This document shows, one piece after another, positions 1-17,391 of a stretch of DNA of 64,000 nt. A program made the position numbers and the translations under genes. Position 1 is the stretch's first letter, and every line of letters starts with the position of its first letter. The stretch lies in NCBI GenBank assembly GCA_903868145.1, contig CAIPTY010000015.1, forward strand, positions 62,001-126,000. Reading direction: 5' to 3'. This DNA comes from an uncultured Desulfuromonadales bacterium. GTDB lineage: Bacteria > Desulfobacterota > Desulfuromonadia > Geobacterales > Pseudopelobacteraceae. The notes under the pieces are model-generated. The model was not told the origin of the DNA and searched no databases. It saw only the letters and a list, made by a program, of their open reading frames with translations.

Positions 1-1568
1 AACAGTGCCAATCGGCCATTCTCCAGGGTGGTGGAGCCATCTTCATTCTCACGCTGAAAACCGGAGATGTAGTCATAGACCAGTTTGGATGTTGAGGTGT
101 TATTACAGACGACAATAAAGCAGGGGGGCACCTTGATACCGCTCTGCTCCCAGAGGTTGTAGGTCTTTTCATAATGGCCGTAGAGAGCCTCCAGTGCAGT
201 CTGGAGTTCGACGGGGATGCTTAATGGATCAAGAGCATTACCCTTGCCTCGCCCTTTCTTGGGCATCCGTTTACGAATATGTTCCCACAGATTACGGAAC
301 TTGGGCATATCGCCACCGGGTATGTTGTCAGCCACCGGGACACGGGGCAGTTTAACAATTCCGCATTCAATGGCATCCATCAGCGAGAAGTCGCTCATTG
401 TCCACGGAAAGAGCGTACCTTCGGCATAACCAGAACCGCGCAGGAAGAACGGTGTTGCTGACAGGTCTATAACTCGGGGAATTCCCAGCTTACGCTTAAC
501 AATCTCCAGACCGGAAATCCAGAGACGTGCAGCCTCGTTGTTCTTTTCGGCTTCCTTCCTGTCATCACCGGTCAGGTCATCATCTTCATCGTCAAGGGCG
601 GGCTTTTCGCGATAGCAATGGTGTGCTTCATCATTCAGGACCATGACGTTCTTCAGTCCCATCAGATCCGGCATTACCCGCTGGAGCATCTGACCTTCAG
701 TTTCCAGCGTGTTCAGCTCTTCGCCGCCACGCCCTTGGAGCAGCAGGCGGCCACCCTTGGATAACTCCATCCGCTCGCGCAGCTTGAACGCATGGTAATT
801 GGTGATAACGATCTTCGCCCGATCAAGGTCGTCCAGCATGTCACTGGGAACAATCTCACGGCTTTGATAATAGCTGTCAGGATCGTTGGGTTGCAGTACC
901 CGCAAACGATCACGGATTGTCAGGCCAGGGGCAACTATCAGAAACCCACGGGTGAAGCGCTTGCTGGTAGGACGTCGAACCGAGTTGATCGTCTGCCAGG
1001 CAATCAGCATGGCCATGACGGTAGTCTTACCTGCACCGGTAGCCAATTTCAGGGCCAGGCGCATTAACTCTGGGTTGGCGTCATTGTTGGCATTAGCCAG
1101 GTGTTCGATGAACTTCTTGCCGTCCTTCACATTGGGGGCAACCTCAGTCAACCAGATAGCAGTCTCGATAGCTTCCACCTGACAGAAAAACGGTTTTACG
1201 CCATTGAATTTATAGTGACGCCAGTGCTGCAACAGACGAACTGTTTCAGGAGTGACCTGCCAGTGATTGGGGTTGGGAATTGTGCGCCACTGATCAACAT
1301 GGCGGCGGAGTTCATTGATTATCGAGGTGGGGTCGTACTGCTGATCCTTTGTTGAAAGGCCTTTACCTTCGTCAAACACAAATCCTTGCTGGTCAGCAGG
1401 TGCTGCCCTGCGTTTTTTTGGTTTGGGTATCGGCGTGATGAATTCGGCACGGCGACGTTTATCAAGAATCTGCTGAGTCGGTTGGCCTGATGGATCCAGT
1501 TCCCAGTGGCGAGCGGGGTATTCATATGGGGAATTGAGGATTGGCTGTTCGAAGAAACGGTTATTCAT
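1..1568 (-). CDS. Type III-like restriction enzyme, helicase subunit (BPTD_3080-like), 3' end outside window
   Basis: This reading frame starts at an ATG at 1568 behind a GGAGG ribosome site and stays open to the window edge, so about 522 N-terminal residues are visible. The start (MNNRFFEQPILNSPYEYP) is characteristic, from memory, of a family of large restriction DEAD/DEAH helicases. A Walker A loop (ATGAGKTT, about residue 176), a DEAH box (NDEAHHCY, about residue 309) and an SATPF motif III (about residue 368) mark a superfamily 2 helicase core as in type III Res proteins. The nuclease domain would lie in the missing C-terminal part. It starts 37 bases after the OleA-like gene on the same strand. 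No modification methylase is visible, so any partner must lie beyond position 1. The helicase assignment is firm; the restriction role is inferred from family resemblance. Confidence 0.82.
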   Translation of the reverse strand, partial: MNNRFFEQPILNSPYEYPARHWELDPSGQPTQQILDKRRRAEFITPIPKPKKRRAAPADQQGFVFDEGKGLSTKDQQYDPTSIINELRRHVDQWRTIPNPNHWQVTPETVRLLQHWRHYKFNGVKPFFCQVEAIETAIWLTEVAPNVKDGKKFIEHLANANNDANPELMRLALKLATGAGKTTVMAMLIAWQTINSVRRPTSKRFTRGFLIVAPGLTIRDRLRVLQPNDPDSYYQSREIVPSDMLDDLDRAKIVITNYHAFKLRERMELSKGGRLLLQGRGGEELNTLETEGQMLQRVMPDLMGLKNVMVLNDEAHHCYREKPALDDEDDDLTGDDRKEAEKNNEAARLWISGLEIVKRKLGIPRVIDLSATPFFLRGSGYAEGTLFPWTMSDFSLMDAIECGIVKLPRVPVADNIPGGDMPKFRNLWEHIRKRMPKKGRGKGNALDPLSIPVELQTALEALYGHYEKTYNLWEQSGIKVPPCFIVVCNNTSTSKLVYDYISGFQRENEDGSTTLENGRLAL

Positions 1569-1605
1569 GTTTATGCCTCCTTCATCCAACCCTTTGAAAG
1601 ATGTT

Positions 1606-2649
1606 CTACCATTCCATCCCCAGCATGAGGCAGTTCAGCCCGCTGCCGATCCCGAGAAAAGCCACCCGGTCGCCCGCTTCCAGGATGTCCCGCTCATCGG
1701 CAATGGCTGCCGTCAGGGGCAGGGAGACGGTGCCCATGTTGCCCAGGTATTCGTAGGTGGTGAAATCTTTTTCAGGAGGGATGTCAAGGGTCTTTAGGAT
1801 CGCGCTCTGGTGGGCGGAACCGACCTGATGGCAGACCACCTGGTCAACATCCTCCGTGCGCCAGCCGACCTGCGGAAGAAAGACCTCCCAGGTGCGTCGC
1901 CCCAGTTCGACACCGTAGTTCATGACATTGACCCCATCCGTTGACATGGACTGAACATAGCCCCCCTTGCCGTCCGGGATGATGCCCCAGAGACAGAGAC
2001 GGTGGTGTTCCGGTGCCGCCAGGGTGATACCGCCCAGCAGACGACGCCGTGAGGCGCCGGAGAAGGAGCCGTCGGTCAGCAGAATTGCAACGGCGCCGGA
2101 ACCGCCGGTCAGGGTTGCCAGCGACGCGGCAAAGTGCTGCATGGTCCGTTCTTCAAGCATCCGGGCGATCATGATTTCATTGATTTCGCGTGCGCTCTCG
2201 CAGGAAACCACCAGGCCGGCCTTGATCTGTCCGAGCTCTATCCGGTTTGCCACATCCAGGATTCCGTTGAGAACGCCAAGACAGGCATTGGAGAGGTCAT
2301 ATACGGCGGCCTTGCCGCCGATACCGAGTTTTGCGGCAACACGACAGGCGGTGGCTGGTTCGAACTGTTCCCGACAGACACCGGTGTAGATCAGGGCTCC
2401 GATCTCATCCGGTGAGACACCGGTGGTTGACAATACTTTTCGTGCTGCTGCAATGGCGCCATTGGAAAGCGGATAGCCCGGCTCCCACCAGCGCCGCTCC
2501 CGAATCCCGGTCAGAGCCTGCAACTGGCCGGGCGCAATGCGCAGGTAACGGTATAACGACTCCAGGCGCGACTCCAGTTCGGCCGAGGTAACAACAACCG
2601 GTGCCAGTTCATAGCCGAGTGCCTCAATGGTAACTTTACGGTACTTCAT
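1606..2649 (-). CDS. OleA-like 3-oxoacyl-ACP synthase III (thiolase superfamily)
   Basis: This is a 347-residue KAS III-type condensing enzyme. The catalytic residues are visible: Cys123 in SNACLG, His274 in CHQVG and Asn304 in YLGNMGT. Glu97 (in QFEPAT) falls where OleA enzymes carry the glutamate that helps deprotonate the second acyl chain, and the C-terminus has the GIGSGLNC motif shared with OleA. OleA joins two long fatty acyl-CoAs head to head, giving a beta-keto acid that becomes a ketone or olefin. This protein resembles OleA more than housekeeping FabH, judged from memory and without an alignment program. Its ATG overlaps the stop of the upstream PfaC-like gene by four bases (ATGA), so it is translationally coupled to the synthase. 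No oleB, oleC or oleD lies nearby. A priming or chain-releasing KAS III is the main alternative. Confidence 0.85.
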   Translation of the reverse strand: MKYRKVTIEALGYELAPVVVTSAELESRLESLYRYLRIAPGQLQALTGIRERRWWEPGYPLSNGAIAAARKVLSTTGVSPDEIGALIYTGVCREQFEPATACRVAAKLGIGGKAAVYDLSNACLGVLNGILDVANRIELGQIKAGLVVSCESAREINEIMIARMLEERTMQHFAASLATLTGGSGAVAILLTDGSFSGASRRRLLGGITLAAPEHHRLCLWGIIPDGKGGYVQSMSTDGVNVMNYGVELGRRTWEVFLPQVGWRTEDVDQVVCHQVGSAHQSAILKTLDIPPEKDFTTYEYLGNMGTVSLPLTAAIADERDILEAGDRVAFLGIGSGLNCLMLGMEW

Positions 2650-5600
2650 AGTTTTGACTCCATCCTTACGGTAAAATCATTCATCTGGTAGATAAGCTTG
2701 CCATCAACGGCGAGGAAACCATCTGCCATCAAAATGCGTTCCTGTTCATCCACGGCCGTGACCCAGGCGCTCACCGTCACCCGGCTGTTGGACGGCACAA
2801 CCTGTCCGCGGTACAGCCAGCGGTGTTTCCGCTCCAGGGCCACGGCCGAGATGACATCGCCATGCTGGCAGCCCCAGCGCTCTACAGCCGCGAACTTCAG
2901 CAGCTGGATAAACGACTCCAGCCCCAGTGAACCGGGGGTGACCGGGTCTTCGTAGAAGTGCGCCTTGAAAAACCATTCATCGGGCTCGACGTCCTTGATG
3001 CCGCGAATGTAGCCCAGCCCGCACGGGCCCCCATCCGCCACGAACAACTCGATCCGGTCGATCATGCGCAGCTTCTTCTCCGGAAACGGGGCTGTATCCG
3101 GGTACGGGATGTTTCTGCCCCGCCCGGCCTCGTCCGCCGCTGGCTGATACGGCTTTGCATCGCGGATGCCGACCTGGTTCGCCAGGGCCTCCTTGGCAAA
3201 GAACCCGAACATGGTATCGCCTTCATAGATGATTCCAAGCCGGTCGGCAACAGTGAAGTCGTACTCCTGGATGATCATGCCGCCACTGGTGGCAACCTTT
3301 TTCATCGTTGCTGTTGCAGTCAGGGTGCCGCTGTCGGGAGTCACCAGGCGGTGCTGAACGGCAGTGCCGCCCAGATTGCGGAAGGATATATCGTTGGGAC
3401 TGGTCAGTGCCGAACCGACGTAGGCGGCCAGCCACCCGCAGGGCTGCAATGCTGCTTCCAGCAGGACGGAGAACGGCATGCGCGCCATACGTTCCGCGGA
3501 AAAAAACCAGGCGTCGGCCGACAGGTCATATTGGGCCTCAACCCTCGCTCCGGCGGTCATCTTACACGGCTCCCCGCTCACAGCGGTAACGCGATCCATA
3601 AACTGGAACGGCGGACCCGGCAGACGGGCGATCTTGCGCTCGGCGTCGAAGATACGATAAGGCTCGCCAAAGCCCTCGGATGGTTTTCCGTTGCTGTAGG
3701 CCAGGATCTGCTGCTTGGTATAGATGGCGGGCTTACGCACGTCTGCCCCATCCCCCTCCTGACCTCCCCCTTGAAAGGGGAGGAACTCACGTGTTCCCTC
3801 CCCTTCAAGGGGAGGGGTAGGGCGGGGATGGGGTAGAACTTGTCGATTCCACAGCGCTTCCAGCATCTCCCAGCTTGTTCCGGTCAGGCGGGCCGACATG
3901 CTGGTGATCTCGACGATCGGTTTGCCGTCGGCGTACATAAGGGCATCCACGATCGCATACGGTTCCGGTCGGTAGCCGATCTCGCGGATCGTAACCTCGT
4001 AGGTGACGATTCTCGTGGTTTCCAGCACCTGTCCCCGGCAGCAGAGTTTGCTGGAAACGCCGGGAACCGGCTCCCATACTGCGTCCTCCGTTTCGGCTAC
4101 CCAGCCCAAGCGTAGCAGGTAGATGCGCAGTGTGTGCATGCAGCACTCGTACATCAGGGTGCCGGGCATGACCCGGTCATCGACGAAATGGCAGGTGATA
4201 AACCAATCATCCGGGTGTATGTCGGCCTCGGCCCTGATGATGCCGATGCCGCAGCGACCGCCGTTGGGATCAATCTCGTTGACGCGGTGAACCAGGCGCA
4301 TCCTGCCGCCCGGAATCGTCAGCGGACAGGATAACGGCAGTCCAGCGAATGCCGGTCCGAAACAACCGGCCAGGTCGCCGTCCCGCAGGCGGTCCAACCT
4401 GTCTGAAGCGTACATCTCTCTCGCTATCGGTATCAGTTCCCGCCAGTCTGGCGGGCGTATACCGACCGTGGGACGCAGGTCCAGCACCGGACGCACGATA
4501 CCCTTGCCGGCATCCAGTTCCTGCTGACTGAAGAAACCGGCGCAGCCGTCGCGCATGGACAACAGCGGCCGGCCATCAACCGTGGCCTCGAAGAAGAATC
4601 GGAACAGCCAGGTATCACCCTGACGGAAGAAACGCTCGATATGGATATCATAATGGATGGTTTCGCCCGGTCCCGGCAACCCGCGATGAAAGGTCACCTC
4701 GGCATCGAGCAGTCGGTAGACCGCCAGACCACGGGTAATGAAGTCGATGCCGAGATAGCCGGAAAGGAACAGATCGGCCTGCCCCGCCTCCACGGCGATG
4801 CAGGTGGGTATGCATCCGCCATCCAGATACCAGGCGGTCGGGTGGATGTCATGTTCGGTGACAACACTGCCATGGGTCATGGAGCGCGGCTCTCCCTTGA
4901 CAGTCAGGATGCGGTCAACCAGCATCAGCGGTTCGTCCGGCAGTCTGACGCGGGTCGGGAAGTCGTCCACCTCGGCAAATTCCCGGCCAAGCATCCGTCC
5001 GACAGAGCCGCGGGCGAACTCCAGGCACATACTGCGGTTAAAGGCAACGGCACCATCTACCTCATCCCCGCCCCGACCCTCCCCGTGAAAGGGAGGGGGA
5101 ACAGGAGCATCATCACCCAGCGCCTCCCGCAGGGACATTTCCAGGGCGAGAGCCTGTGCCATGGAACGGGTTATCGTCTCGCTGACGGTCAGGAATGCCG
5201 CATGAGCCTCCGCATGGGTCTGCCGGGCACGGGCAAGCTCCTGGATTAAGGAGTCGCCTGAGAGCGGAGAAGTGGCGGCTGGTTTATCCGCAGGAGCTTG
5301 ACCCCCCTCAACTGCCGCCTTCTTTTGCCTTCCTGCCGGTGGCTGCGGCGGATTAAATGATACTCCTCCGGGAACGACCCGCAGCATCCCGGACGTTTTC
5401 AGGGATTCATCCTCGATCCGCGGAAGATCAAAAAGCGGCGACAGATCGACCGGCACCCCTTCGGCGATAAGGCTGGCTATCATTCTGAGTACAAGAGAAA
5501 CCGGATCCTGCCCGGCGTAACAGGCAGAACGTGCCAGGTGGGGACGATCACCGAGGATGCGACCGATCATGCGGCTGCATGAGGCGCCGGGCCCCATCTC

Positions 5601-8600
5601 CAGGAACAGCCGCACGCCGTCCTGATATGCCGCTTCGATAACGTTCGGATAATTGATGCCGTGCAGCGCCTGACCCAGGATCGAAGCTGCGGCGCTTTCC
5701 CGGTCCACCTTGTAGGAACCGCCCTTGACACCACTGTAGTACACAACTCCAGCAGGCGCTTCGGTCGGGTACAGATGCAGGTCATGATAGGGAGCTGCAA
5801 CCTGTTGTGCAACGTCGCAATGCACCGTGGTGACCCCTTGCAACGGGAAAAACCGGCCGTTGCATGACGTCACCAGGCGGGAAAGCTGTTCGGCATCACC
5901 GCCTATGACACATTCGTCCGGGGTGTTGACGATCAGAAGGTAGGTACGGGGAAATTCCGCAAGGGTACGTCGCACCTCATGTTCCGGTGCTGCGATTACT
6001 CCCAGGTTCCACTGTACGGTTTCATTATCACCCAATCCCCAGGCGCGTCGCGCCGCCCGACATTCGCCGGCCAGATCGTCGGTGAAGAGGGTCGACTCCT
6101 GCATGCGGGTATGCATGCCGTCCCGGTCCCGCCAGGCCCGCAGGGCAAACAGACCCGCGGATTCGCCCAGGCTGTAGCCGATGACGGCGGCAGGGTTGAC
6201 CTCGAAGCGCTGCACCAGATCGCTGACTGCGCATCCGGTGGCTACCTGCCCGAAAATAACCGCCCGATGATCATCGTTGATCAGCGCAGATGGTGCGCCG
6301 TTCCAGAACAGCTCAGGCTGAAACTGGGAACGGAGGCAGAGATTCTCCCGATCCTGGCGGCGTAGTATTTCCGGCCAGCGAGAGAACAGCTCCAGTCCCA
6401 TGCCGGCATAGTGATTTCCGGAACCGGGGAAGACAAAGGCGATTTTGCCCGTCAGACCAAGCGGCTGTGACGAATAGAACAGCCGGTCGCGCAGGGCCGG
6501 AACCGGATCGCTGATATCCCCCCCGTTGCACAGGGTTGCTCTCCCCAGTGCGATCAGCGCCGCCAGTTCGTCGCGGCCTCTGGCAACCATCGCCATGGCG
6601 TGCGCTTTTCCAGCAGTGGCCGCATAGTGTGCATACCGGTCGGGTGCCAGTTTGTTCCAGTCGCTATCCGGCAGGGAACGGAGCTTCGCTTCGAACTCAT
6701 CAAGCTCTGCCTGAAGGTCATCCGTGGTTTCGCCGGTAAAGGCAAACAGACATTCGGTTCCGGCACCCAGTGGCGCGGAGCCCTGCGAATCGTTTTTGTC
6801 CCATCCCTCCAGCACGACATGGCTGCAGGAACCATCGATGCCGCAAACACTGATCCCGGCGCGACGCGGGCCCTCCGACCGGTTGCGCAGCCAGTATCGC
6901 GGCGAGCCGGGAAAGTGGAGTGTCGAACATTCCACAGGAGCCGGGACAGGAGTTTCCACTCCCCGGCACCCGGGGATGATTTCATGGAACAGGGCCAGGC
7001 AGCCACGCACCAGCGAGGCCAGGCCCGAGGCTGCTCCGCTGTGACCGATGTCCCCTTTGACACTGCTGACAGCGCATGACCGGGCGGAGGAACTGCCGGA
7101 ATGGAAGAATGAGGTCAGCGCGGCGGCTTCTCGACGGTCGCTTTCCGGAGTTCCGTCGGCGCTGGCCTCAACAAAACCGATCGAAGCCGGATCAACCCCG
7201 GCATCAGCGTACGCCTTTTCAAGGGCCTGCAGATAGGCATCGTCCCCGAATGTGGCAATATCGCCGCCTGCGGTACCGATGCCCCTGATAACAGCGTAGA
7301 CCCGGTCACCATCCCGCTCGGCATCTTCAAGGCGTTTGAGAACAACGGCACAGGCGCCTTCTCCGATGATGGCTCCGTCTGCCGAAGAGTCAAAAGGAGC
7401 GCTGATCCCTGAAGGCGAAAAGGGATGCACAGCATGCCGGCCAAGGGCGGCACGCAGGTCTCCGGCCAGGTCAACTGCACCGACCAGCGCCTGATCCAGT
7501 TCACGGTTCTGTAACTGGCGAAGCGCCACTTCCAGAGCTCTGATGCCGGAGCTTTCCTCGCTGGAGATGGTAAAACCCGGACCGCCGATGCGGAATTCGC
7601 GGGCTATCCTGCTGGCCACGACACTTCCCAGTGCGCCCATGGTACGGTTGGCACTCAGAGGCGGGCCGACAGCGGTACGAAGCCGGGACGTCCACTCTGT
7701 CAGTTCTTCCGGCGTCAGATCCCGTCCCAGTTTTTGTGCCCAGCGAACGGCCTGTTCGGGTAATGACCAGCGCAGGCTGAAGTTGGTGCTGTTCAGGTCG
7801 AGGGCGATGCCGATAAACACACCGGTGGCGGGGTTATCGTCCTGCCCCGGTCCGGCATCGTGCAGCGCCTCTGCCGCAGTCTGCAGCATGAGCAACTGCT
7901 GGGGGAGCATTTCCTCCATCTCGCGCGGTGGAATTCGGAAACGGCTGGCTGGAAGCGCAACTTCGTTCAAATAGAAACCGTTGAAGGGGGTCCTGTCCCG
8001 TTCTTCCGTGCGGAACCAGTTGCTCTCCGCTGCACCATGCCAGGCCTCCGGAGGGTGGGGGAGTACAGCACCATCGCCCCCCAGCACCCGTTCCTGAAAT
8101 GCCTGCAGTGACTGCCAGGGACCGAAGCGGGCAGACATGCCTACGACTGCTATTTTTTCTCCACCCTTGTGGCGTAGAGAAGCTGTCTCTAAGCTTTTAG
8201 TCCCTTCCCCTTCAAGGGGAAGGTTAGGATGGGGATGGGTTTGATGTTGACTGGTTGCCGAAATGCCCGAATCTACCCCATCCCCTCCCCGGCCCTCCCC
8301 TTGAAGGGGAGGGAGAAAAACAGAGGAAATAGAGGACGGCAGCCACTCTTCAATAAGCAGGTGGGCGTTTATGCCGCCGAACCCGAAAGCACTGACGGCG
8401 GCACGCAGGGGGATACCGTCGCCTCGACGCTGCCAGGGATGTGGTGATTGCAGAATCCGGAAGGGACTGCTGTCAAGCTCCATGCCCGGTTGGGGGGTGG
8501 TGAAATTGGCCGTCGGGGGGAGCGTTTTCTGCTGCATGGCCAGCAGAACCTTGGTCAGGGCCGCTCCCCCCGCTGCGGTGAGAAGATGGCCGATGTTTGA

Positions 8601-9686
8601 TTTGACGGATCCGATGACGCAGCGCGCCCCATCATGCCCGGTTTCTCCCCACAACTGTCTGAGGCTCGCGACTTCCACTGCGTCACCGACCGGGGTGCCG
8701 GTGGCGTGACATTCGATCAGATCGACGTCATGCGGACTCCAGCCAGCCAGATTATATGCGGCACGCATGGCGCGCAGCTGACCTTCCGATGTGGGAGCCA
8801 GCAGGCTGCCCCCCACATCGTTGGAGAGGCCGACACCCCTGATTATCCCGTAGATCCGGTCGCCGTGGGTCAGAGCGTCTTCAACCCGCTTAAGCAGGAA
8901 CAGGCCGGCTCCTTCGCCAACCACCAGGCCGTCGCCTGCCGCGTCAAAGGGGGAACAGATGCCCCTCTTCGAGAGGGCGCGCAACTGGGAAAATCCCATC
9001 TGGGTAAAGAGCGGATCGGGGCGCGAAACCCCGCCGGACAACATGGCATCAGCCCTGCCGGACAGCAGCTCGTCCACGGCCAGCTTGATGGCATACAGCG
9101 ATGAGGCGCAGGCGGCGTCGAGTGTGCATCCGCCCCCTCCCAGGCCGAGGGAACGGGCCAGGATTCCGGCCGGGAGACCGGCGGGAAAGCGGTTGAGCGG
9201 CGATGTGGGAGTGGGTGGGGATGCTGATCCGAGCAGCTGCTCCTCGAAGGTTCGCCCCAGGGAGTTACGGGTCAGGAGGGCAGAGGTTTCGGTCGGTAGA
9301 GCCAGGTTTCCAATGATGACGCCAACCCGCGAGCGATCCAGCACAGTGGTCACGCCATCGTCGAAGGCGCGTTTTCCGGCGTGGATCAGAAGATGGAAGA
9401 GCGGATCGAGCCCGTCAAGGATGGCAGGATCTATGGCAAGGCCGGGGAGTGTGGCGGCCGACGGGAGCCGGTCGATGAAGCAGCCCTGCCGGGAATAGAC
9501 ACAATCGGCTTTCCCCGGCTCAGGATCGAATACGGCGTCTGTCGGAACTGTCCAGCGCCCGTCGGGAATCTCGCGGAACGCACTCCGGGAGGTGCGGATG
9601 TTCTCCCAGAAAGCAGCAAGGTCAGGCGCATCGGGAAAAATACCGCCGATACCGACAATGGCTACGGAAGAACGTGAGGGCGTCAT
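2646..9686 (-). CDS. pfaC: PfaC-like PUFA/secondary-lipid synthase subunit (KS-CLF-AT-DH-DH)
   Basis: This is a 2346-residue multidomain synthase. Domains in order: an active KS (about 5-450, Cys193 in DAACASS, later ECHATGT and SNIGH); a second KS-like domain without the cysteine (EESSG), hence a chain-length factor (about 505-920); an acyltransferase (about 1040-1370, Ser1172 in GYSLGES); then four FabA-like hot-dog folds that make two dehydratases (about 1560-2346). The second and fourth folds keep the catalytic histidine (CHFVDDRVMPG near 1832; AHFYEDPVTPG near 2243); the first and third lack it. Marine PfaC proteins lack the AT, which is normally on PfaB; the fused AT recalls myxobacterial Pfa3 proteins. 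The start used is the ATG whose A is the last base of the upstream TGA; an alternative upstream start at 9710 would overlap that gene. Three palindromic insertions sit in inter-domain linkers (see repeats). Confidence 0.9.
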   Translation of the reverse strand: MTPSRSSVAIVGIGGIFPDAPDLAAFWENIRTSRSAFREIPDGRWTVPTDAVFDPEPGKADCVYSRQGCFIDRLPSAATLPGLAIDPAILDGLDPLFHLLIHAGKRAFDDGVTTVLDRSRVGVIIGNLALPTETSALLTRNSLGRTFEEQLLGSASPPTPTSPLNRFPAGLPAGILARSLGLGGGGCTLDAACASSLYAIKLAVDELLSGRADAMLSGGVSRPDPLFTQMGFSQLRALSKRGICSPFDAAGDGLVVGEGAGLFLLKRVEDALTHGDRIYGIIRGVGLSNDVGGSLLAPTSEGQLRAMRAAYNLAGWSPHDVDLIECHATGTPVGDAVEVASLRQLWGETGHDGARCVIGSVKSNIGHLLTAAGGAALTKVLLAMQQKTLPPTANFTTPQPGMELDSSPFRILQSPHPWQRRGDGIPLRAAVSAFGFGGINAHLLIEEWLPSSISSVFLPPLQGEGRGGDGVDSGISATSQHQTHPHPNLPLEGEGTKSLETASLRHKGGEKIAVVGMSARFGPWQSLQAFQERVLGGDGAVLPHPPEAWHGAAESNWFRTEERDRTPFNGFYLNEVALPASRFRIPPREMEEMLPQQLLMLQTAAEALHDAGPGQDDNPATGVFIGIALDLNSTNFSLRWSLPEQAVRWAQKLGRDLTPEELTEWTSRLRTAVGPPLSANRTMGALGSVVASRIAREFRIGGPGFTISSEESSGIRALEVALRQLQNRELDQALVGAVDLAGDLRAALGRHAVHPFSPSGISAPFDSSADGAIIGEGACAVVLKRLEDAERDGDRVYAVIRGIGTAGGDIATFGDDAYLQALEKAYADAGVDPASIGFVEASADGTPESDRREAAALTSFFHSGSSSARSCAVSSVKGDIGHSGAASGLASLVRGCLALFHEIIPGCRGVETPVPAPVECSTLHFPGSPRYWLRNRSEGPRRAGISVCGIDGSCSHVVLEGWDKNDSQGSAPLGAGTECLFAFTGETTDDLQAELDEFEAKLRSLPDSDWNKLAPDRYAHYAATAGKAHAMAMVARGRDELAALIALGRATLCNGGDISDPVPALRDRLFYSSQPLGLTGKIAFVFPGSGNHYAGMGLELFSRWPEILRRQDRENLCLRSQFQPELFWNGAPSALINDDHRAVIFGQVATGCAVSDLVQRFEVNPAAVIGYSLGESAGLFALRAWRDRDGMHTRMQESTLFTDDLAGECRAARRAWGLGDNETVQWNLGVIAAPEHEVRRTLAEFPRTYLLIVNTPDECVIGGDAEQLSRLVTSCNGRFFPLQGVTTVHCDVAQQVAAPYHDLHLYPTEAPAGVVYYSGVKGGSYKVDRESAAASILGQALHGINYPNVIEAAYQDGVRLFLEMGPGASCSRMIGRILGDRPHLARSACYAGQDPVSLVLRMIASLIAEGVPVDLSPLFDLPRIEDESLKTSGMLRVVPGGVSFNPPQPPAGRQKKAAVEGGQAPADKPAATSPLSGDSLIQELARARQTHAEAHAAFLTVSETITRSMAQALALEMSLREALGDDAPVPPPFHGEGRGGDEVDGAVAFNRSMCLEFARGSVGRMLGREFAEVDDFPTRVRLPDEPLMLVDRILTVKGEPRSMTHGSVVTEHDIHPTAWYLDGGCIPTCIAVEAGQADLFLSGYLGIDFITRGLAVYRLLDAEVTFHRGLPGPGETIHYDIHIERFFRQGDTWLFRFFFEATVDGRPLLSMRDGCAGFFSQQELDAGKGIVRPVLDLRPTVGIRPPDWRELIPIAREMYASDRLDRLRDGDLAGCFGPAFAGLPLSCPLTIPGGRMRLVHRVNEIDPNGGRCGIGIIRAEADIHPDDWFITCHFVDDRVMPGTLMYECCMHTLRIYLLRLGWVAETEDAVWEPVPGVSSKLCCRGQVLETTRIVTYEVTIREIGYRPEPYAIVDALMYADGKPIVEITSMSARLTGTSWEMLEALWNRQVLPHPRPTPPLEGEGTREFLPFQGGGQEGDGADVRKPAIYTKQQILAYSNGKPSEGFGEPYRIFDAERKIARLPGPPFQFMDRVTAVSGEPCKMTAGARVEAQYDLSADAWFFSAERMARMPFSVLLEAALQPCGWLAAYVGSALTSPNDISFRNLGGTAVQHRLVTPDSGTLTATATMKKVATSGGMIIQEYDFTVADRLGIIYEGDTMFGFFAKEALANQVGIRDAKPYQPAADEAGRGRNIPYPDTAPFPEKKLRMIDRIELFVADGGPCGLGYIRGIKDVEPDEWFFKAHFYEDPVTPGSLGLESFIQLLKFAAVERWGCQHGDVISAVALERKHRWLYRGQVVPSNSRVTVSAWVTAVDEQERILMADGFLAVDGKLIYQMNDFTVRMESKL
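3746..3833. repeat. Paired palindromic element (REPIN-like) in a pfaC linker
   Basis: Two C/G-rich hairpins with cores CCCCCTTGAAAGGGG and CCCCTTCAAGGGG face each other. They are bounded by CCCCATCCCC on the left and GGGGATGGGG on the right, so the whole element is one inverted repeat of about 88 bases. It is translated in frame as a Gly/Glu/Pro-rich linker between the second and third hot-dog folds of the PfaC-like protein (PPLEGEGT and FQGGGQEGDG type peptides). Confidence 0.85.
5062..5100. repeat. Single palindromic element of the same family in a pfaC linker
   Basis: A lone copy (CATCCCCGCCCCGACC followed by CTCCCCGTGAAAGGGAGGGG) lies in frame between the acyltransferase and the first hot-dog fold. 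It encodes a PPPFHGEGRGGDE peptide. Sequence and reading frame match the elements at 3746 and 8200, but with only one arm. Confidence 0.78.
8200..8315. repeat. Paired palindromic element (REPIN-like) between KS and CLF of pfaC
   Basis: Two hairpins (CCCCTTCAAGGGG near 8207 and CCCCTTGAAGGGG near 8297) are separated by about 75 bases. Their GGGGATGGG and CCCCATCCCC arms point inward, the opposite arrangement to the 3746 copy. The element is translated in frame as the KS-CLF linker (PPLQGEGRGGDG and PNLPLEGEGT peptides). Confidence 0.85.
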
Positions 9687-12600
9687 CAGGCGGCTACCAG
9701 TTCTACACACCCCGGTTGCGTTATTTGGTTACGCTGGAAGGCCCGCTGCAGTGAGGGGTCAATAACACATTCGTACTCCTCAAGCCGCGCAATCAGCTTT
9801 CCGTTGTTCCGGTCAAGAAACTCGATGTCGGCGGTAGCGCCGTGACTCCGCTCCGAGGTGACCCGGATCACAATCTGGGCGCCATCCCGCGGGAAGCTGT
9901 CCTGATACTGGCGGTAGCACCCGGCAAATGAGGGGAGGGACCCGGATCCGGAACGCTCGAAACTCCACAGTATCATCAACTGGAAGGCGCAGTCCATAAC
10001 CAGCGGATCGGTAAGCCATAGATTTCGCAAGGGATGTTTGATCCAGCTTCCCGGCACCGGCGCAGCCTTTGTCTGCGCGGTGATTCCCTTGGGAGAACAG
10101 CCGCCAACCCGTTCGATACCCTGCAGGTCGGGACCGTGGAAGAGGTGCCCCTGACCGTAGATTGCGCCGTTGCCAGGGGCGTAGGGAGCGGTCGGCAGAT
10201 CCACGATGGATCGGATTCCTTCCGGCAGTTTTGTCGCCAGCACGATTTCGGCAGTGGCGTGCAGGATGCTCACTCCATCGCAGCTTTTTCCGGTCAGTTT
10301 CACGGCAACGATATGGAGGGAGTCATGTTTTTCTGCCCTGCCAGCCATGACGCTGAGGGTACAGGCGCTGTCCTGATCGAATATGACCCCTTTGCAGATG
10401 CGCAGGTTGTTGAAACCGTGGAATCGGAAACCGGGGTTGCCGTGCAGTGCGCCATGGGCCAGCCATTCAACGATCATGGCCATGGGAAGAACCGCCTTGC
10501 CGTCGATTATGTGGGAGCGGATGAAGGGATAATCCGCTACTGTCAGGGTAAGGCTGAATGCCTCGTTTAGAGGCTTGTCCGGCAGAGGTGACGCGGATGC
10601 AACGGATCCGGCCGTTCTGCCGGCCAGGGCAATAATCTCCACCGGATCACCGGCTGCGGCAATCTCGCGAACCAGAAACTCCCCGCCTTCATTCAGGCCG
10701 ATCAGGCCGATTCCTTCACCGGAAAAAACCTTTTTCAGAGCCGGGGTTACCATTCCGCCATCCCAGGGGCCCCAGTTTATACTGATGGTACGGCAGCTGT
10801 TTCGTCGCCTCGATTCTGTCTGGGCCAGCTTGTTGAGAACTTCATTGGCCACGGCGTAATCAACCTGCCCGCTGCGACCGTAACGCCCCGATGTGGAAGC
10901 AAACAGGACGATGATGCGCAGGTCGTCGGAGTCAGTCGCATCAAGCAGCGACCGCAATCCCCCCACCTTGGTCCCATACACAAGGGCAAACTGTTCCCTG
11001 GTCTTGTCGCTGATCAAACGGTCAGCCAGGACTCCGGCGCCATGCACAATGCCGCGGATCGGTCCATACTCCCGGCGTATGTCGGTCATAAGATCGGAGA
11101 CCGCTGCCGCGTCACGGATATCCACGGAGCGGTATACCGCTTGACCGCCGGCTTTTGTGACCCTCGACAGGGTTGTTCTCAGTTCCCGTCCGGCACTGAT
11201 GGTTCGATACTGCTCCTCAATCTCCCGCGGGTGAAGCTTCTCTGTTGCGTGCTCCAGTATGGCGCGCTTGATCTGGCTTTCCTCTGACAATGATTTCAGC
11301 CACTCCGGTTCCGGCTGCAGTTCGGGGCTGCGTCCCAGAAGGACCAGCAGCGGCTTGTACGCCTCCGCCAGGGCAACGGCAGCCGTTGTCGTCACTCCGC
11401 GACCACCACCGGTAATCACAACCACATCCCCGGCCTGCAGCGGCTCAGAGGAAGGGGCAGCAAGAGCCGGTAGATCAACCACTTCTATGGCAGTTCTGCC
11501 CGAGGGGGTCAGGCCGACCTCCAGTGGAGTGGACAGAAAGATCACATCTGCAACGGCACGCGCCTCTGCGTTCGTATCGGAAAAGAGCCCCAGATCCAGT
11601 GCCTTGCAGGACACTTCGCTCCATTCACGGGATGCGGTTTTTGCAAGTCCCGCCAGACCGCCTGAAAGCGGGTCCGTCAGTGTGGTTCTGCTTCCGCACC
11701 CGAAGGAGCCGTCCAGGCGCGAGACGGTTGCAAACAGTGCTCCGCCGTCCTCGCCGGCCCGGCGCAGTGATGGCGCAGAGCTTTTCAGGAGCAGGAATGC
11801 GTCTTCAAGGAAGGAGTCGTCGGTCCCGCCGAAGGGCGCGCAGATGATCAGCCCGCTGATTTCAGTTCCCGGCGCATCAAGAATAGCCTCTTCAATGTCT
11901 ACCATCTGTACGGTGTATCCGGAATCGCCGAGCAGGGAGCAGAGTTCTGCGGAAAACGGGGAACCGTCATCCGTAACCCAGACAAGCGCCCTGTCAGACA
12001 GCCTCAAAGTCTGTAAAACGTCGTTCAGGGGAACCGACATGATGGTGCTTCGATTGACCGGTGCTGCCGGAGCAGCTGAATGCCCGGAATCAGGCGATAG
12101 GGTAACGGCAGCTTCGGGCTGTGTGGCAGGTGCGGCTCCGGCACCCAGATGTCTGGCTATTTCTCCCAGGGTGTGGAGGCTTCCCATATGTTCGGGGCCG
12201 ATGACCGGTGAACCGGGGAGGCGCTCCTGAAGAGCCGACAGGATTTCGACACGCTTGATGGAGTCTATGCCCAGGTCGGAATCGAGCCCCATCTCCATCT
12301 CCAGCATTTCAACCGGATAACCGGTCTTCTCGCTGACCACCGCCAGGAGCGTCCCGGCGATCGTGCCGGACACGTCTGTCGTGTCAGACCGGTCAGGCGG
12401 AAAATTATCAGGTGCGGCACCGGCACCCAGATGTCTGGCTATTTCTCCCAGGGTGTGGAGGCTTCCCATATGTTCGGGGCCGATGACCGGTGAACCGGGG
12501 AGGCGCTCCTGAAGAGCCGACAGGATTTCGACACGCTTGATGGAGTCTATGCCCAGATCGGAATCGAGCCCCATCTCCATCTCCAGCATCTCAACCGGAT

Positions 12601-15600
12601 AACCGGTCTTCTCGCTGACTACCGCCAGCAGGGTCTCGGCGATCCGGTTTGACTGAGGTTGGGCAACCGGAAGCGGTTGGGGAACTGTGGACTGGACAGG
12701 TGCGGGGGTGAATGACGCGGTTGGCGCGGTTGGCGGTACAACGGCAGCCGTAGTCACCTGCGGCGGGGGTGAAACGTTGAAACCGCCCCCTTGAAGAATG
12801 CGCTGCTGTTGCTCCAGAAGGATCTGGATGGTCTTCCCTGCGGTGTCCTGTCCCTCCAGAAAGCGGCGGTGGAGTTGGGCGGTCTCGTCCTGCATGCGCA
12901 TCAGCGCCGCCATTCCTTCCCGGGTTACCCGCAGCGACTCTGTCAGGACGTCCCGTGACACCGCTGTCGGTGCTGGCTGGGCTGAAGCCGCATATGCCGG
13001 AGTGTCTGCTGTCGGCCGGGGGGGAGCAGCAGGACTTTTCACTTTTGGCTTTACGTAGTTCGCACCGCTCAGGTTGATCGTCAGAGCAGGTTTTTTTCCG
13101 GTAATCCGGGGAGTGGGGCAATAATCTGCATCCCACTGAGTGAGCCTGACATTATGACCGAGTGCAGCTAGTTGAGCCAGGCAGCGCGCCAGGTCAACGA
13201 TGCCGGAGCGTTTGCCTCCGGATGCATCGAGCGACATAACGGTATGCGGTCGGTCGGCAAGTATTGCAGAAACAAGCCCGCTCAGGCGTGCGCCGGGGCC
13301 AACCTCGATGAAGGAACGTATGCCGGAAGCGTACATGGCCTCGATCCCGGCAACGAACTCGACCGGTAGGGCCAACTGTCCGGCCAGCAGTTTTTTTGCC
13401 TCCCGGGCATCGCCTGGATAACAGGCGGCGGTGCTGTTGGCATAGACCGGCATCGATCCCGGTGCGATGGTTATGTCTGCAAGTGCATCAAGCAGCGGTG
13501 CTGCGGCGTCGGCAACCAGCGGACTATGGAAGGCTGCCGCTACCGGCAGGCGCTTGCAGGGCAGCTTGCGGGACCCACAGGCATCGGCGGCACGACTGAT
13601 CTCCGAACTGCTGCCGGAGAGGACGGCCTGGTTGGGCGCATTACGATTGGCGATGACCAGATCCAGTTTTTCCGAGTCGATCAGACGCTGTACGTCCGCC
13701 AAGGGCGCAGATACAGCCAGCATGCTGCCCCGGTCGCCCTCTCCGGCGGCCATCAGGTGACCACGCAGACGGGAAAGGGCGTGGAACGAGGTTTCGTCCA
13801 GGCGTCCGGCGGCGCACAGGGCGGTCAGTTCTCCATAACTGTGACCCGCAGTCGCATCCGCAACAAGGCCGAACGACTCCAGCAGACGCAGGGCGCCCAG
13901 GCTGACAGCTCCGATGGCGGGCTGGGCTGCGTCGGTGGCGCGCAAAGCCGCTTCCTGTGCATCACGGGCATCGTCACTGAATGCGGTTGGAGGGTAGATC
14001 AGGTCGGACAGACTGCTGCCATCGGCGGCGCAAAATCCCTTGTTTCCGGCATCAAGGCTCACCAGCATCTGCGGAAAACTACAGGCCAGATCGCGGAGCA
14101 TGCCGGTGTACTGGGCGCCCTGGCCCGGGAAGAGCATGCCAAGCTTGCCGGGTGTTGCACCACTGGCATACCAGGCACCGTCGGGAGTGCTCCAGGATGT
14201 GGTCGGCTGTTTGCGCAGCATGGTCAGGGCATTGCCGCAGAGCGTGTTGAGCGAGGTTTTGCCCTGTTCGATAACCAGCGCCAGGCGGCAGGGGGCGGCA
14301 GGGTCAAAGGAAGCGCGAAGATTCCCCGCATGGGCGCGGATTTCGTTCCAGCCTTCAAGATCGGCAATACCGGCAAGTGCATTTTCCAAAGCCGGGGTAT
14401 CGGAGGCGGAAAAGGGGAGAATCTGAACAGAACCGTCCCAGTCTGCTGCTGGTGCTGCGGGTGAATACTCTTCGAGTACGACATGGAAATTTGAGCCGCC
14501 AAAGCCGAGTGCGCTGACGGCTGCCCGGCGCGGCTGACCGTTACGGGAGAACCAGGGACGTTTATGGCTGGTGATGTAGAATGGTGACTGCCCGTCTGAA
14601 ACCTCACGCAGCGGCTGCTGGACCTTGATGGTGGGTGGAATCACCTTGTGATGAAGTGCCAGAGCGGCTTTGATCATCCCGGCTGCGCCTGCGGCCGCCT
14701 TGGTATGTCCGATCTGTGACTTGACCGAACCGAGGGCGCACCACGGTTTTTCGGATTGCCCGTAGATCTCGCGCAGGGCCGACACCTCCACCGCATCGCC
14801 GACCTTGGTGCCGGTGCCATGGGCTTCAACCAGGCCGATGCTGTCAGGGGTTATCCCTGCGCATTGGCAGGCGTCCCGGATGGCCTTTCTCTGACCCGAA
14901 GCGCTGGGGGTGTAGATTGCTTCACCCTTGCCGTCGCTGGAGGAGCCGACACCTTTAATCACGGCATAGATCCGGTCTCCGTCACGTTCCGCATCGGCCA
15001 GGCGTTTGATGACCATGATGCCGAGCCCTTCTCCCAGAATGGTGCCGTCGCCGGAGGCATCGAAAGGCCTGGCATCGCCGCTGGGCGAAAGCGCCGGTGT
15101 CTTGCTGAAACACATAAACATGAAGATGTCATTAAAGGTGTCGATGCCGCCGGTGACTACCATATCCGACTTGCCGGTGGACAGTTCCATAGCGGCAAGA
15201 TGCAGGGCGCCGAGGGAACTGGCGCACGCCGCATCAACAACACAGTTGGTTCCGCCCAGGTCATATTGTTTGCTTATCCTGCCCGCAACAACGTTGCCGA
15301 GAAGGCCGGGAAAGGAGTTTTCCTGCCAGGAAACGTAAGAGTCGGAAATGCGCTGCACAACATCATCGGCGGTCGCCTCATCAACACCCGCATCCTTGAG
15401 GGCTGTCCGCCAATGGGGATGGCCAAGGCGTGCAGCCAGGGGGATGACCAGCTCAAGGGTCCCGGTAACGCCCAGGATCACACTGACCCGGTCGCGGTCA
15501 AAGTTGCGGTCGGCGCCATAGCCGGCATCCTTCAAGGCCTGTCCGGTAGCCACGAGCCCCAGTAACTGTGAACTGTCGATCGCCTCCAGGGTGGCGGGGG

Positions 15601-15871
15601 GAATATTGTAGTCCATCGGGTTGAAGGGGATTTCGGAGAGAAAGCCGCCGCGTTTTCCGTACGTCATATCGGGGGATTTCGGGTCCAGGCGGTGATAATC
15701 CTCGACCCGCCAATGGGTTGCCGGGATGTCGCTGATGGCGTCGATTCCCTCGCGGATGTTGGCCCAGTAGGTGGTGCTGTCTTCGGCGCGGGGAAAGAGG
15801 CATCCGATTCCGATAATGGCCAGCGGCGTCCAACCGGCGGGGGGGGCACTGTTTGCACTGTTCTGTGTCAC
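9686..15871 (-). CDS. pfaA: PfaA-like PUFA/secondary-lipid synthase subunit (KS-AT-ACP-ACP-KR-DH)
   Basis: This is a 2061-residue multidomain subunit. The KS (about 14-450) has Cys216 in DAACASS, EAHGTGT and SQIGHTKAAAG. The AT (about 580-870) has GHSYGE near 676 and an AFHS motif typical of malonyl-CoA selection. Two tandem acyl carrier proteins carry the LGIDSIKR attachment motif at Ser1110 and Ser1204. A ketoreductase (about 1370-1700) has a GGGRG cofactor loop, STSGR and the QVDYAVAN Tyr/Asn pair. A C-terminal dehydratase-like hot-dog region has HIIDGKAVLP. This is the PfaA layout, with two ACPs where marine enzymes have about five to nine. The gene starts with GTG overlapping the pfaD stop (GTGA). 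The ACP serines need a phosphopantetheinyl transferase, and none is encoded in the window. Confidence 0.93.
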   Translation of the reverse strand: MTQNSANSAPPAGWTPLAIIGIGCLFPRAEDSTTYWANIREGIDAISDIPATHWRVEDYHRLDPKSPDMTYGKRGGFLSEIPFNPMDYNIPPATLEAIDSSQLLGLVATGQALKDAGYGADRNFDRDRVSVILGVTGTLELVIPLAARLGHPHWRTALKDAGVDEATADDVVQRISDSYVSWQENSFPGLLGNVVAGRISKQYDLGGTNCVVDAACASSLGALHLAAMELSTGKSDMVVTGGIDTFNDIFMFMCFSKTPALSPSGDARPFDASGDGTILGEGLGIMVIKRLADAERDGDRIYAVIKGVGSSSDGKGEAIYTPSASGQRKAIRDACQCAGITPDSIGLVEAHGTGTKVGDAVEVSALREIYGQSEKPWCALGSVKSQIGHTKAAAGAAGMIKAALALHHKVIPPTIKVQQPLREVSDGQSPFYITSHKRPWFSRNGQPRRAAVSALGFGGSNFHVVLEEYSPAAPAADWDGSVQILPFSASDTPALENALAGIADLEGWNEIRAHAGNLRASFDPAAPCRLALVIEQGKTSLNTLCGNALTMLRKQPTTSWSTPDGAWYASGATPGKLGMLFPGQGAQYTGMLRDLACSFPQMLVSLDAGNKGFCAADGSSLSDLIYPPTAFSDDARDAQEAALRATDAAQPAIGAVSLGALRLLESFGLVADATAGHSYGELTALCAAGRLDETSFHALSRLRGHLMAAGEGDRGSMLAVSAPLADVQRLIDSEKLDLVIANRNAPNQAVLSGSSSEISRAADACGSRKLPCKRLPVAAAFHSPLVADAAAPLLDALADITIAPGSMPVYANSTAACYPGDAREAKKLLAGQLALPVEFVAGIEAMYASGIRSFIEVGPGARLSGLVSAILADRPHTVMSLDASGGKRSGIVDLARCLAQLAALGHNVRLTQWDADYCPTPRITGKKPALTINLSGANYVKPKVKSPAAPPRPTADTPAYAASAQPAPTAVSRDVLTESLRVTREGMAALMRMQDETAQLHRRFLEGQDTAGKTIQILLEQQQRILQGGGFNVSPPPQVTTAAVVPPTAPTASFTPAPVQSTVPQPLPVAQPQSNRIAETLLAVVSEKTGYPVEMLEMEMGLDSDLGIDSIKRVEILSALQERLPGSPVIGPEHMGSLHTLGEIARHLGAGAAPDNFPPDRSDTTDVSGTIAGTLLAVVSEKTGYPVEMLEMEMGLDSDLGIDSIKRVEILSALQERLPGSPVIGPEHMGSLHTLGEIARHLGAGAAPATQPEAAVTLSPDSGHSAAPAAPVNRSTIMSVPLNDVLQTLRLSDRALVWVTDDGSPFSAELCSLLGDSGYTVQMVDIEEAILDAPGTEISGLIICAPFGGTDDSFLEDAFLLLKSSAPSLRRAGEDGGALFATVSRLDGSFGCGSRTTLTDPLSGGLAGLAKTASREWSEVSCKALDLGLFSDTNAEARAVADVIFLSTPLEVGLTPSGRTAIEVVDLPALAAPSSEPLQAGDVVVITGGGRGVTTTAAVALAEAYKPLLVLLGRSPELQPEPEWLKSLSEESQIKRAILEHATEKLHPREIEEQYRTISAGRELRTTLSRVTKAGGQAVYRSVDIRDAAAVSDLMTDIRREYGPIRGIVHGAGVLADRLISDKTREQFALVYGTKVGGLRSLLDATDSDDLRIIVLFASTSGRYGRSGQVDYAVANEVLNKLAQTESRRRNSCRTISINWGPWDGGMVTPALKKVFSGEGIGLIGLNEGGEFLVREIAAAGDPVEIIALAGRTAGSVASASPLPDKPLNEAFSLTLTVADYPFIRSHIIDGKAVLPMAMIVEWLAHGALHGNPGFRFHGFNNLRICKGVIFDQDSACTLSVMAGRAEKHDSLHIVAVKLTGKSCDGVSILHATAEIVLATKLPEGIRSIVDLPTAPYAPGNGAIYGQGHLFHGPDLQGIERVGGCSPKGITAQTKAAPVPGSWIKHPLRNLWLTDPLVMDCAFQLMILWSFERSGSGSLPSFAGCYRQYQDSFPRDGAQIVIRVTSERSHGATADIEFLDRNNGKLIARLEEYECVIDPSLQRAFQRNQITQPGCVELVAA
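12139..12643 (-). repeat. Near-identical tandem ACP coding repeat, period 282 bp
   Basis: The DNA for the two ACP domains of the pfaA-like gene repeats with a period of 282 bases (94 codons). For example, GTCTGGCTATTTCTCCCAGG occurs at 12151 and 12433. Over roughly 220 bases only a handful of changes are visible, such as CAGGTCGGA against CAGATCGGA. This points to a recent in-frame duplication or to ongoing gene conversion between the two carrier domains. Confidence 0.93.
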
Positions 15872-17391
15872 GCGAGGTACTCCTTGATCTGGGTGTCTTC
15901 AAGCGGTTCTATACGAAAATCGGCCGGGAGCCGGATGTTCTGGTAACGCAGGATGTTGGCGCGGGTGAGGACAGCCGCACCGAACAGGATATTGCGGCCA
16001 ACAGAGGCGACGCGGCGGCGCTCCGGCAACTCCAGAAAGCTGCCGGCTGTCCATTCGTTGAACGCTCCCATGGCCGGTCCGCACCATACCTGATAGTCCA
16101 TCGTCCGGGTGGGATCGCCATCCTTTGCCCAGTGGGCGGCCTGCCCCAGATACCAGCGGAAGACAAGCGCCATGCGATGTTTCTGATCCCGCTCGGCACG
16201 CTCTACCTGGTTCGGGTTACGCGTCAGAAAAAAGGCTCGGGTGTCCCGCCAGATGTCGGCAACAGGCGCCTTGAAAAAAGTCTTCTCAAGTTTGTCGCGT
16301 TCGGAGTCCGGGATGCTCTCCAGTCCGTCATATCTGCGGTAGAGCTCATACAGCTTCGCTGCCCGCATCGGGAACATGGTGCCACGCTTCAGCACCTGCA
16401 CCGTGACGCCCATTTCAAACATATCAGCCGCCGGCGCCATGGCCACATCGGCCTGGCGGGTTTCCGCAAGCATCCGGCGTACAGCCTCCGAAGTTCCCGA
16501 TTCCACACATGCCTGATTGACGGTGCCGGTCACAATGTACGCTGCTCCCATGGCATAGGCGGCGGCAGCGGCGACAGGTGTTGCAATGCCGCCGGCCAGT
16601 CCGACCCGCAGCCTGAAAGGATAGTCGCACTTCTGTTCCATTCTGGTTGCCAGGGCGGCAATGGTTGGAAACAGAGCCATGGCCGGGCGGTTGTCGGTAT
16701 GACCTCCTGAGTCGGCCTCGGCAGTAACCTCCTGTGCCATCGGTATTCTGGCGGCCAGGAGAGCCTGTTCAGCGCTGAGTGAACCCTCGGCCACGAGCTG
16801 CTGCAGGAATTTTTCCGGCGGCGGTGAAAAGAATTTTTCGGCCAGTTCTTCCCGTGAAACCTTGGCAATAATACGGTTCGGAAGAACAATCGTACCGTCT
16901 GCGGCCTGATGTATGCCGTGGGTGCGGTAGCGGACCAGCGGCAGCGTCAGAGCCAGAAAAGCGGAGGCCTCTACCAAACGCACGTTTTTGCGGATGTACA
17001 AACCGGCCAGAGCGGCCTCAAGATCAGGCTCGTGGGGTGAGTGAATCAGATTGAATCCACAGGGGAAATCAGCATCCGTCAGGCGATCCACCGCCGCTTC
17101 CACCTCGGAGAACGGCAGACCGGCGGCTCCGAAGAAACCGGCCATTCCTGCTCGTCCCAACTCCTCTACCATCTGAACGGAGCTGATCCCCTTGGCCATC
17201 GAACCACCAAGATAGGGGAACCGTATCCCGACGTCACGACAGAACTCCCGGTCACCAAGCTGCTCCGGCAGCAGCCGGGGAGCGAAAACATGGTGAGGCA
17301 GGTTGTCTGATCCGACGGCTGTTACCGTGACAGGTTGAGAAAGCTTTCGGAGCATTTCTCTCAGATTGAGCTCCGTATTTTCGATCTTCAA
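15868..17391 (-). CDS. pfaD: PfaD-like trans-acting enoyl reductase
   Basis: This 507-residue protein is of the PfaD family, FMN-dependent TIM-barrel enoyl reductases that act in trans on PUFA and polyketide synthases. Visible family features are the N-terminal GGSMAKGISS region, the AEADSGGHTDNRP flavin-site signature near residue 230, and the Gly-rich GLAGGIATP stretch that follows. It is the first gene of the operon; its TGA overlaps the GTG of the pfaA-like gene. The longest frame starts with TTG at 17391 and has no clear ribosome site. An ATG at 17355 (residue 13) is a reasonable alternative. The function, reducing enoyl-ACP intermediates on the megasynthase, follows from the family and the operon. 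Confidence 0.93.
   Translation of the reverse strand: MKIENTELNLREMLRKLSQPVTVTAVGSDNLPHHVFAPRLLPEQLGDREFCRDVGIRFPYLGGSMAKGISSVQMVEELGRAGMAGFFGAAGLPFSEVEAAVDRLTDADFPCGFNLIHSPHEPDLEAALAGLYIRKNVRLVEASAFLALTLPLVRYRTHGIHQAADGTIVLPNRIIAKVSREELAEKFFSPPPEKFLQQLVAEGSLSAEQALLAARIPMAQEVTAEADSGGHTDNRPAMALFPTIAALATRMEQKCDYPFRLRVGLAGGIATPVAAAAAYAMGAAYIVTGTVNQACVESGTSEAVRRMLAETRQADVAMAPAADMFEMGVTVQVLKRGTMFPMRAAKLYELYRRYDGLESIPDSERDKLEKTFFKAPVADIWRDTRAFFLTRNPNQVERAERDQKHRMALVFRWYLGQAAHWAKDGDPTRTMDYQVWCGPAMGAFNEWTAGSFLELPERRRVASVGRNILFGAAVLTRANILRYQNIRLPADFRIEPLEDTQIKEYLA

Follow-up and report, generated by a model that had tools for sequence, protein, structure and literature searches.

Gene content and layout of the operon

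The locus analyzed here is, in all likelihood, a polyunsaturated-hydrocarbon operon of the order pfaD-pfaA-pfaBC-oleA-oleB-oleC-oleD, which was interrupted between oleA and oleB by an acquired Type III restriction-modification (RM) island and whose likeliest product is C31:9. The window, i.e., the whole stretch of 64,000 nucleotides that was analyzed, comprises positions 62001 to 126000 of contig C15, a contig of 143 kb in an assembly of 103 contigs. The initial annotation had described four overlapping genes from 17391 to 1606, and these are indeed present on the minus strand as pfaD, pfaA, a pfaBC-like gene and oleA (Table 1). With the listed start codons, the overlaps amount to 4 nt (pfaD/pfaA), 25 nt (pfaA/pfaBC) and 4 nt (pfaBC/oleA, ATGA). 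An alternative ATG at codon 9 of pfaBC would reduce the pfaA/pfaBC overlap to 1 nt. Genes, gene order and catalytic motifs are seen directly in the DNA. The full-length proteins match curated models and the gene order recurs in relatives, which rules out chance or a frame artefact for the operon genes.

Table 1. Features of the operon and the start of the island. Positions refer to the window unless contig C15 is named.
Feature	Position	Strand	Description	Evidence
BPTD_3080-family restriction endonuclease gene	1..1589	-	5' part, first island gene	NF046055 1398.8 bits, cut-off 800
oleA	1606..2649	-	347 aa; predicted head-to-head Claisen-condensing thiolase	NF006720, PDB matches, residues, tree
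pfaBC fusion	2646..9710	-	2354 aa; KS, chain-length-factor-like KS without Cys, AT, FabA-like dehydratases	Pfam domains
REP-like palindromic element	3742..3842	.	in-frame, between pfaBC domains	inverted arms 3742-3786/3793-3837
Second REP-like palindromic element	8200..8314	.	in-frame in pfaBC	repeat search
pfaA	9686..15871	-	2061 aa; KS, MAT, two ACPs, KR, PS-DH	TIGR02813 1490.6 bits, cut-off 1010.1; domains and motifs
Tandem duplication	12127..12644	-	282 bp, spans both pfaA ACP domains	TRF 1.8 copies, 97% matches
pfaD	15868..17391	-	507 aa; operon gene 1, enoyl reductase of PUFA synthase	TIGR02814 605.6 bits, cut-off 449.25
oleB	C15:52853-51957	-	alpha/beta hydrolase	VHDWGG motif; no match to OleB-specific model
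oleC	C15:51960-50323	-		NF006754 730.8 bits, cut-off 478; OleC-family gene located at C15:50326-51948; TSGSTG motif
oleD	about C15:50326-49325	-		NF042422 (OleD model) 461.5 bits, below cut-off 580; YPATK motif

The pfaBC protein contains two ketosynthase regions, an acyltransferase and four FabA-like stretches, a content that corresponds to a pfaB-pfaC fusion. The first ketosynthase carries the motif DAACASS at 198, and SSEESSG at 716 replaces the active-site Cys motif of the second. The pfaB model reaches 108.3 bits on this protein and stays under its cut-off of 144.3. By its domain content, the protein shows the pfaBC fusion that characterizes the Type I secondary lipid synthase of Shulse and Allen. 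The REP-like repeats of pfaBC are translated between domains as HPRPTPPLEGEG-type peptides, and a lone REP-like arm is located at 5056-5098. The motif DLGIDSIK occurs twice in pfaA, at residues 1105 and 1199. Among relatives in which ACP motifs were found, their number varies from 1 to 3, compared with the two ACPs of the window's pfaA.

Downstream ole genes and the proposed pathway

The genes oleB, oleC and oleD are located on the same contig and strand as oleA, 10.75 kb past it and beyond the edge of the window. The gene order past oleA (C15:44000-63999) is restriction endonuclease, DUF4062/HATPase gene, Type III methyltransferase, IS200-like transposase, UvrD-type helicase, oleB, oleC, oleD and glgA. 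The operon looked incomplete because the island pushes oleBCD past the window edge, and the window covers just 1.6 kb downstream of oleA. The initial annotation had stated that no oleBCD lies nearby, which is wrong, and the search elsewhere in the genome that it suggested leads to the same contig. A false lead, an OleA without partners, is thereby removed; it had arisen from the position of the window edge. The three genes are assigned by family, order and motifs, because the models specific to Xanthomonas and Shewanella do not reach their cut-offs with OleC and OleD, and no OleB-specific model matches OleB. We take VHDWGG, TSGSTG and YPATK to be the functional motifs of OleB, OleC and OleD, respectively. 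On this basis, the oleBCD genes of the OleABCD pathway are present. No pfaE was found after oleD, where glgA follows; phosphopantetheinyl transferases (PPTases) are encoded elsewhere in the genome on contigs C4 and C96.

In the OleABCD pathway, condensation by OleA is followed by reduction by OleD and by the formation of a beta-lactone by OleC, which OleB decarboxylates to yield an internal alkene. Going by the named protein families, a polyunsaturated acyl chain would be assembled by the PUFA-synthase-like proteins while bound to the PfaA ACPs, and OleA would condense two of these chains head to head. OleD would then reduce the beta-keto acid, OleC would close the beta-lactone and OleB would remove CO2, which would yield a long polyene hydrocarbon with an internal double bond. 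By analogy with Geobacter bemidjiensis, the likeliest product is hentriacontanonaene (C31:9) or a closely related compound; chain length and unsaturation are not readable from sequence. The earlier proposal of a dedicated lipid made from synthase-bound chains holds insofar as PUFA-synthase-like chain building and head-to-head condensation are combined in one operon. Its argument for the release of a ketone falls, because it presupposed that oleBCD are missing.

A ketone could also be released for another reason. The island may uncouple oleA from oleBCD and leave oleBCD silent, in which case a long polyunsaturated ketone (31:8-type) would be set free, as guessed initially. A 31:8 ketone is described for E. 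coli carrying the Shewanella pfa operon and OleA without OleBCD (PMC6463001), and the island disrupts the tight oleA-oleB spacing of relatives. However, oleB, oleC and oleD all have open reading frames and retain the motifs named above. Read-through into oleBCD is plausible, because the five annotated island genes are co-directional with the operon and the last one ends 52 bp before oleB. We therefore regard uncoupling as unlikely and presume that oleBCD continue to be expressed behind the island. A promoter scan of the island (8 found, shuffle mean 11.3) gave no information, and a terminator scan (14 found, shuffle mean 14.1) was not above chance and argues neither way. The interrupted operon represents a natural experiment: if oleBCD are uncoupled, more long-chain ketone relative to hydrocarbon would be expected than in congeners free of the island.

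Comparison with known systems

The genus Geobacter presumably belongs to the same bacterial order as the organism of the window. For G. bemidjiensis, the genes pfaD, A, B, C, oleA, B, C, D and pfaE are described in tandem together with the production of C31:9 (PMC4882568). The same paper calls it unproven what role C31:9 plays in strict anaerobes. A supply of olefin synthesis by this cluster type was proposed in 2011 (PMC3098273, section 10). The pfa-ole layout is thus already published (PMC4882568, PMC3098273) and the locus is ordinary in kind, contrary to the novelty that the initial annotation implied for pfa genes and OleA in one operon. The G. bemidjiensis Bem tandem cluster (PMC4882568; Type I secondary lipid synthase of PMC3098273) has the same genes in the same order, from pfaD through oleD, as the window's operon, which differs by the 10.75-kb Type III RM island between oleA and oleB and by the lack of pfaE after oleD. 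In the Shewanella pathway to hentriacontanonaene, a PUFA synthase likewise feeds chains to OleA-D, but the pfa and ole genes are described as separate operons (PMC6463001), whereas here pfaD opens a single operon that contains both sets and in which pfaB and pfaC are fused. In Photobacterium profundum SS9, the two operons are reported to be separate but adjacent (PMC6463001).

Layout in related genomes

Using the window's own OleA as query, 132 relatives were found, and the loci of the best 80 were analyzed, a sample in which close relatives are over-represented. The flanks comprised up to 10 kb, so that pfaD was out of reach. A pfaBC gene is located upstream of oleA in 69 of these 80 loci, in 67 of them within 300 bp. 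Among the 11 loci without it, one has less than 1 kb of upstream sequence and the rest have 3 to 10 kb. The position of oleB downstream of oleA was measurable in 77 of the 80 loci, with a gap of at most 300 bp in 75 and of 344 and 548 bp in the others. Within the stretch covered, oleC was found in 56 and oleD in 47 loci. In many of the 24 loci where oleC was not found, the contig or flank ends; no oleC was found over about 9 kb beyond oleB in L020, L021, L038, L047, L052 and L056. Many of the relatives found thus share the complete layout of seven genes, but not all of them do.

The inserted restriction-modification island

The island, measured between the stop codon of oleA and the start codon of oleB, has 10,752 bp and continues outside the window to C15:52854. 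Its GC content is 49.7%; that of the surrounding pfa-oleA and oleBCD parts is 60.9% and 59.7%, respectively, and that of the whole window 56.0%. Methyltransferase and restriction endonuclease genes (Mod and Res) occur in one locus, as in Type III RM systems, with one DUF4062 gene between them. The methyltransferase matches PDLC03632 (MTase_III) with 1368.6 bits and the endonuclease the BPTD_3080 family (Table 1). The window's copy differs from systems of this kind by its position within a lipid operon. The intervening gene (DUF4062 and HATPase_c_4, L081:15083-16519) has no match in the four other copies read (L109-L112).

Both the island and its absence from relatives are observed directly. 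An empty site is present in the three congeners listed, with oleA-oleB gaps of 2 bp (G066), 165 bp (G067) and 142 bp (G068), and no restriction gene was found in these genomes at E 1e-50. G066 is the genome of locus L002 and G067 that of L018 (identical sequence); G068 is that of L010. The five island proteins have no match in any of the best 80 of the 132 OleA relatives. Of the 141 genomes of the order that were searched, a set including the own genome, 22 hold a relative of the restriction gene with an E-value no higher than 1e-50. The gene is 97% identical in G101 and G123, both from other genera, and no pfa or ole match was found near it in the stretches read. In G123, it is accompanied by a methyltransferase (78%) and a helicase (95%). 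In both genomes, oleB directly follows oleA, on contigs other than that of the restriction gene. No convincing target-site duplication was detected at the island ends, where the longest shared word has 9 nt and overlaps the start-codon contexts. On the sequence evidence, the island appears to be a horizontally acquired Type III RM insertion between oleA and oleB.

The separation of oleA and oleB could also be an assembly error without any real insertion, since the assembly consists of many contigs and other genomes contain almost identical copies of island genes. We consider this very improbable: both island ends lie inside one 143-kb contig, and the restriction gene is present in a single copy in the genome. 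Furthermore, the spacer of about 20 bp before oleB resembles those of L014 and of the congener L010 (82% and 76%, respectively, over 66 bp including the oleB start).

OleA identity of the KAS III

The KAS III of the operon is firmly assigned by its sequence to the OleA type and not to the FabH type. It reaches 500.3 bits with NF006720 (cut-off 285), which we take to be the OleA model on account of the best PDB matches. The nearest solved structures are 3fk5, 3row and 3s21 (193-196 bits), presumably all OleA of Xanthomonas campestris. Further chains of this kind score 188-191 bits, whereas 69.5 bits is the highest score of any other kind of chain. The window OleA and the Xanthomonas enzyme (3fk5, 3row) share 36% identity (122 of 336 aligned). 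The residues Glu97, Cys123, His274 and Asn304, which had been named initially as OleA-type, all align with the catalytic set of 3fk5 (E97, C123, H265, N295). We assume that E97, C123, H265 and N295 of 3fk5 are E117, C143, H285 and N315 of the full-length enzyme. The set Cys143, Glu117-Pro, His285 and Asn315 (Xanthomonas numbering) is complete in the window OleA. To our knowledge, no pfa genes are located alongside oleA in Xanthomonas. In full-length numbering, E117(-Pro) and C143 are named in PMC7064751, and Xanthomonas OleA is described there as condensing ordinary fatty acyl chains, in which it differs from the enzyme proposed here.

A tree of 49 proteins was calculated. The window OleA groups with Xanthomonas OleA, which has a long branch, and with OleA from 43 other loci (support 100/100), apart from the genome's own four KAS III-type paralogs, which fall outside the OleA clade. 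The 43 loci were taken from the best 80 as every third locus plus those numbered 56 or higher, and rows with stops were excluded. The reading in which a FabH-type KAS III serves the PUFA synthase as starter enzyme, with oleBCD as an unrelated neighbour, is scarcely credible and is ruled out by model scores, residues and tree: it would agree with the KAS III fold and with a weak match to the curated FabH model TIGR00747 (83.6 bits, under the cut-off of 292.1), but the OleA model scores 500 bits, the OleA Glu-Pro motif is present, putative FabH-like paralogs on C1 and C100 lie outside the OleA clade and oleB directly follows oleA in relatives. No second close copy of OleA was found in the assembly (next match E 5e-12). 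A plasmid search with the window OleA returned 202 records, every one with less than 60% identity. The paralogs L083 (C71:91.7-92.6 kb) and L084 (C37:24.1-25.0 kb) closely resemble each other; each has about 650 aa and combines an N-terminal part of about 300 aa with a KAS III-like domain.

Inserts at the oleB-oleC junction

Among the best 80 relatives, inserts of more than 300 bp occur at the oleB-oleC junction in 13 of 56 measurable loci. At the other junctions, they were found in 0 of 51 (pfaA-pfaBC), 2 of 69 (pfaBC-oleA) and 2 of 77 loci (oleA-oleB). Toxin-antitoxin-type genes are present in 6 of the 13 oleB-oleC inserts (6 of the 56 measurable loci), namely PIN (L001), TumE (L002), HigB with HTH (L011), TumE with an HVO_A0114 helix protein (L014), Phd with ParE (L041) and a nucleotidyltransferase with HEPN (L060). 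Among the ORFs scanned, other inserts encode a GGDEF protein (L010), a beta-eliminating lyase (L018), a TetR regulator (L022) and an MFS transporter (L043). In L026 and L071, nothing matched among the ORFs scanned. The scan covered one of four ORFs in L018, one of nine in L022, one of two each in L026 and L071, two of four in L043 and none in L039.

Clusters of oleABCD with 0 to 3 intermediate genes have been described (PMC7064751). A literature search combining the ole genes with toxin-antitoxin or restriction-modification systems, judged by title and the start of the abstract, returned no description of such inserts, and no mention of BPTD_3080 was found in the literature searched. The new details are the interrupting island and the tendency of the oleB-oleC junction toward toxin-antitoxin-type genes, neither of which was found in that literature. 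As a tentative lead that we hold to be possible but doubtful, the comparison with the three other junctions may mean that defence and addiction cassettes repeatedly insert among the ole genes of these operons, most of all between oleB and oleC. If so, the cassettes may, through addiction, keep the hydrocarbon genes in the host, or they may shift the ratio of ketone to hydrocarbon. The 13 oleB-oleC inserts require at least 12 changes on a tree of OleA and OleB, which is of a quick kind and cannot separate gain from loss. The Type III RM island at the oleA-oleB junction is the largest insert measured.
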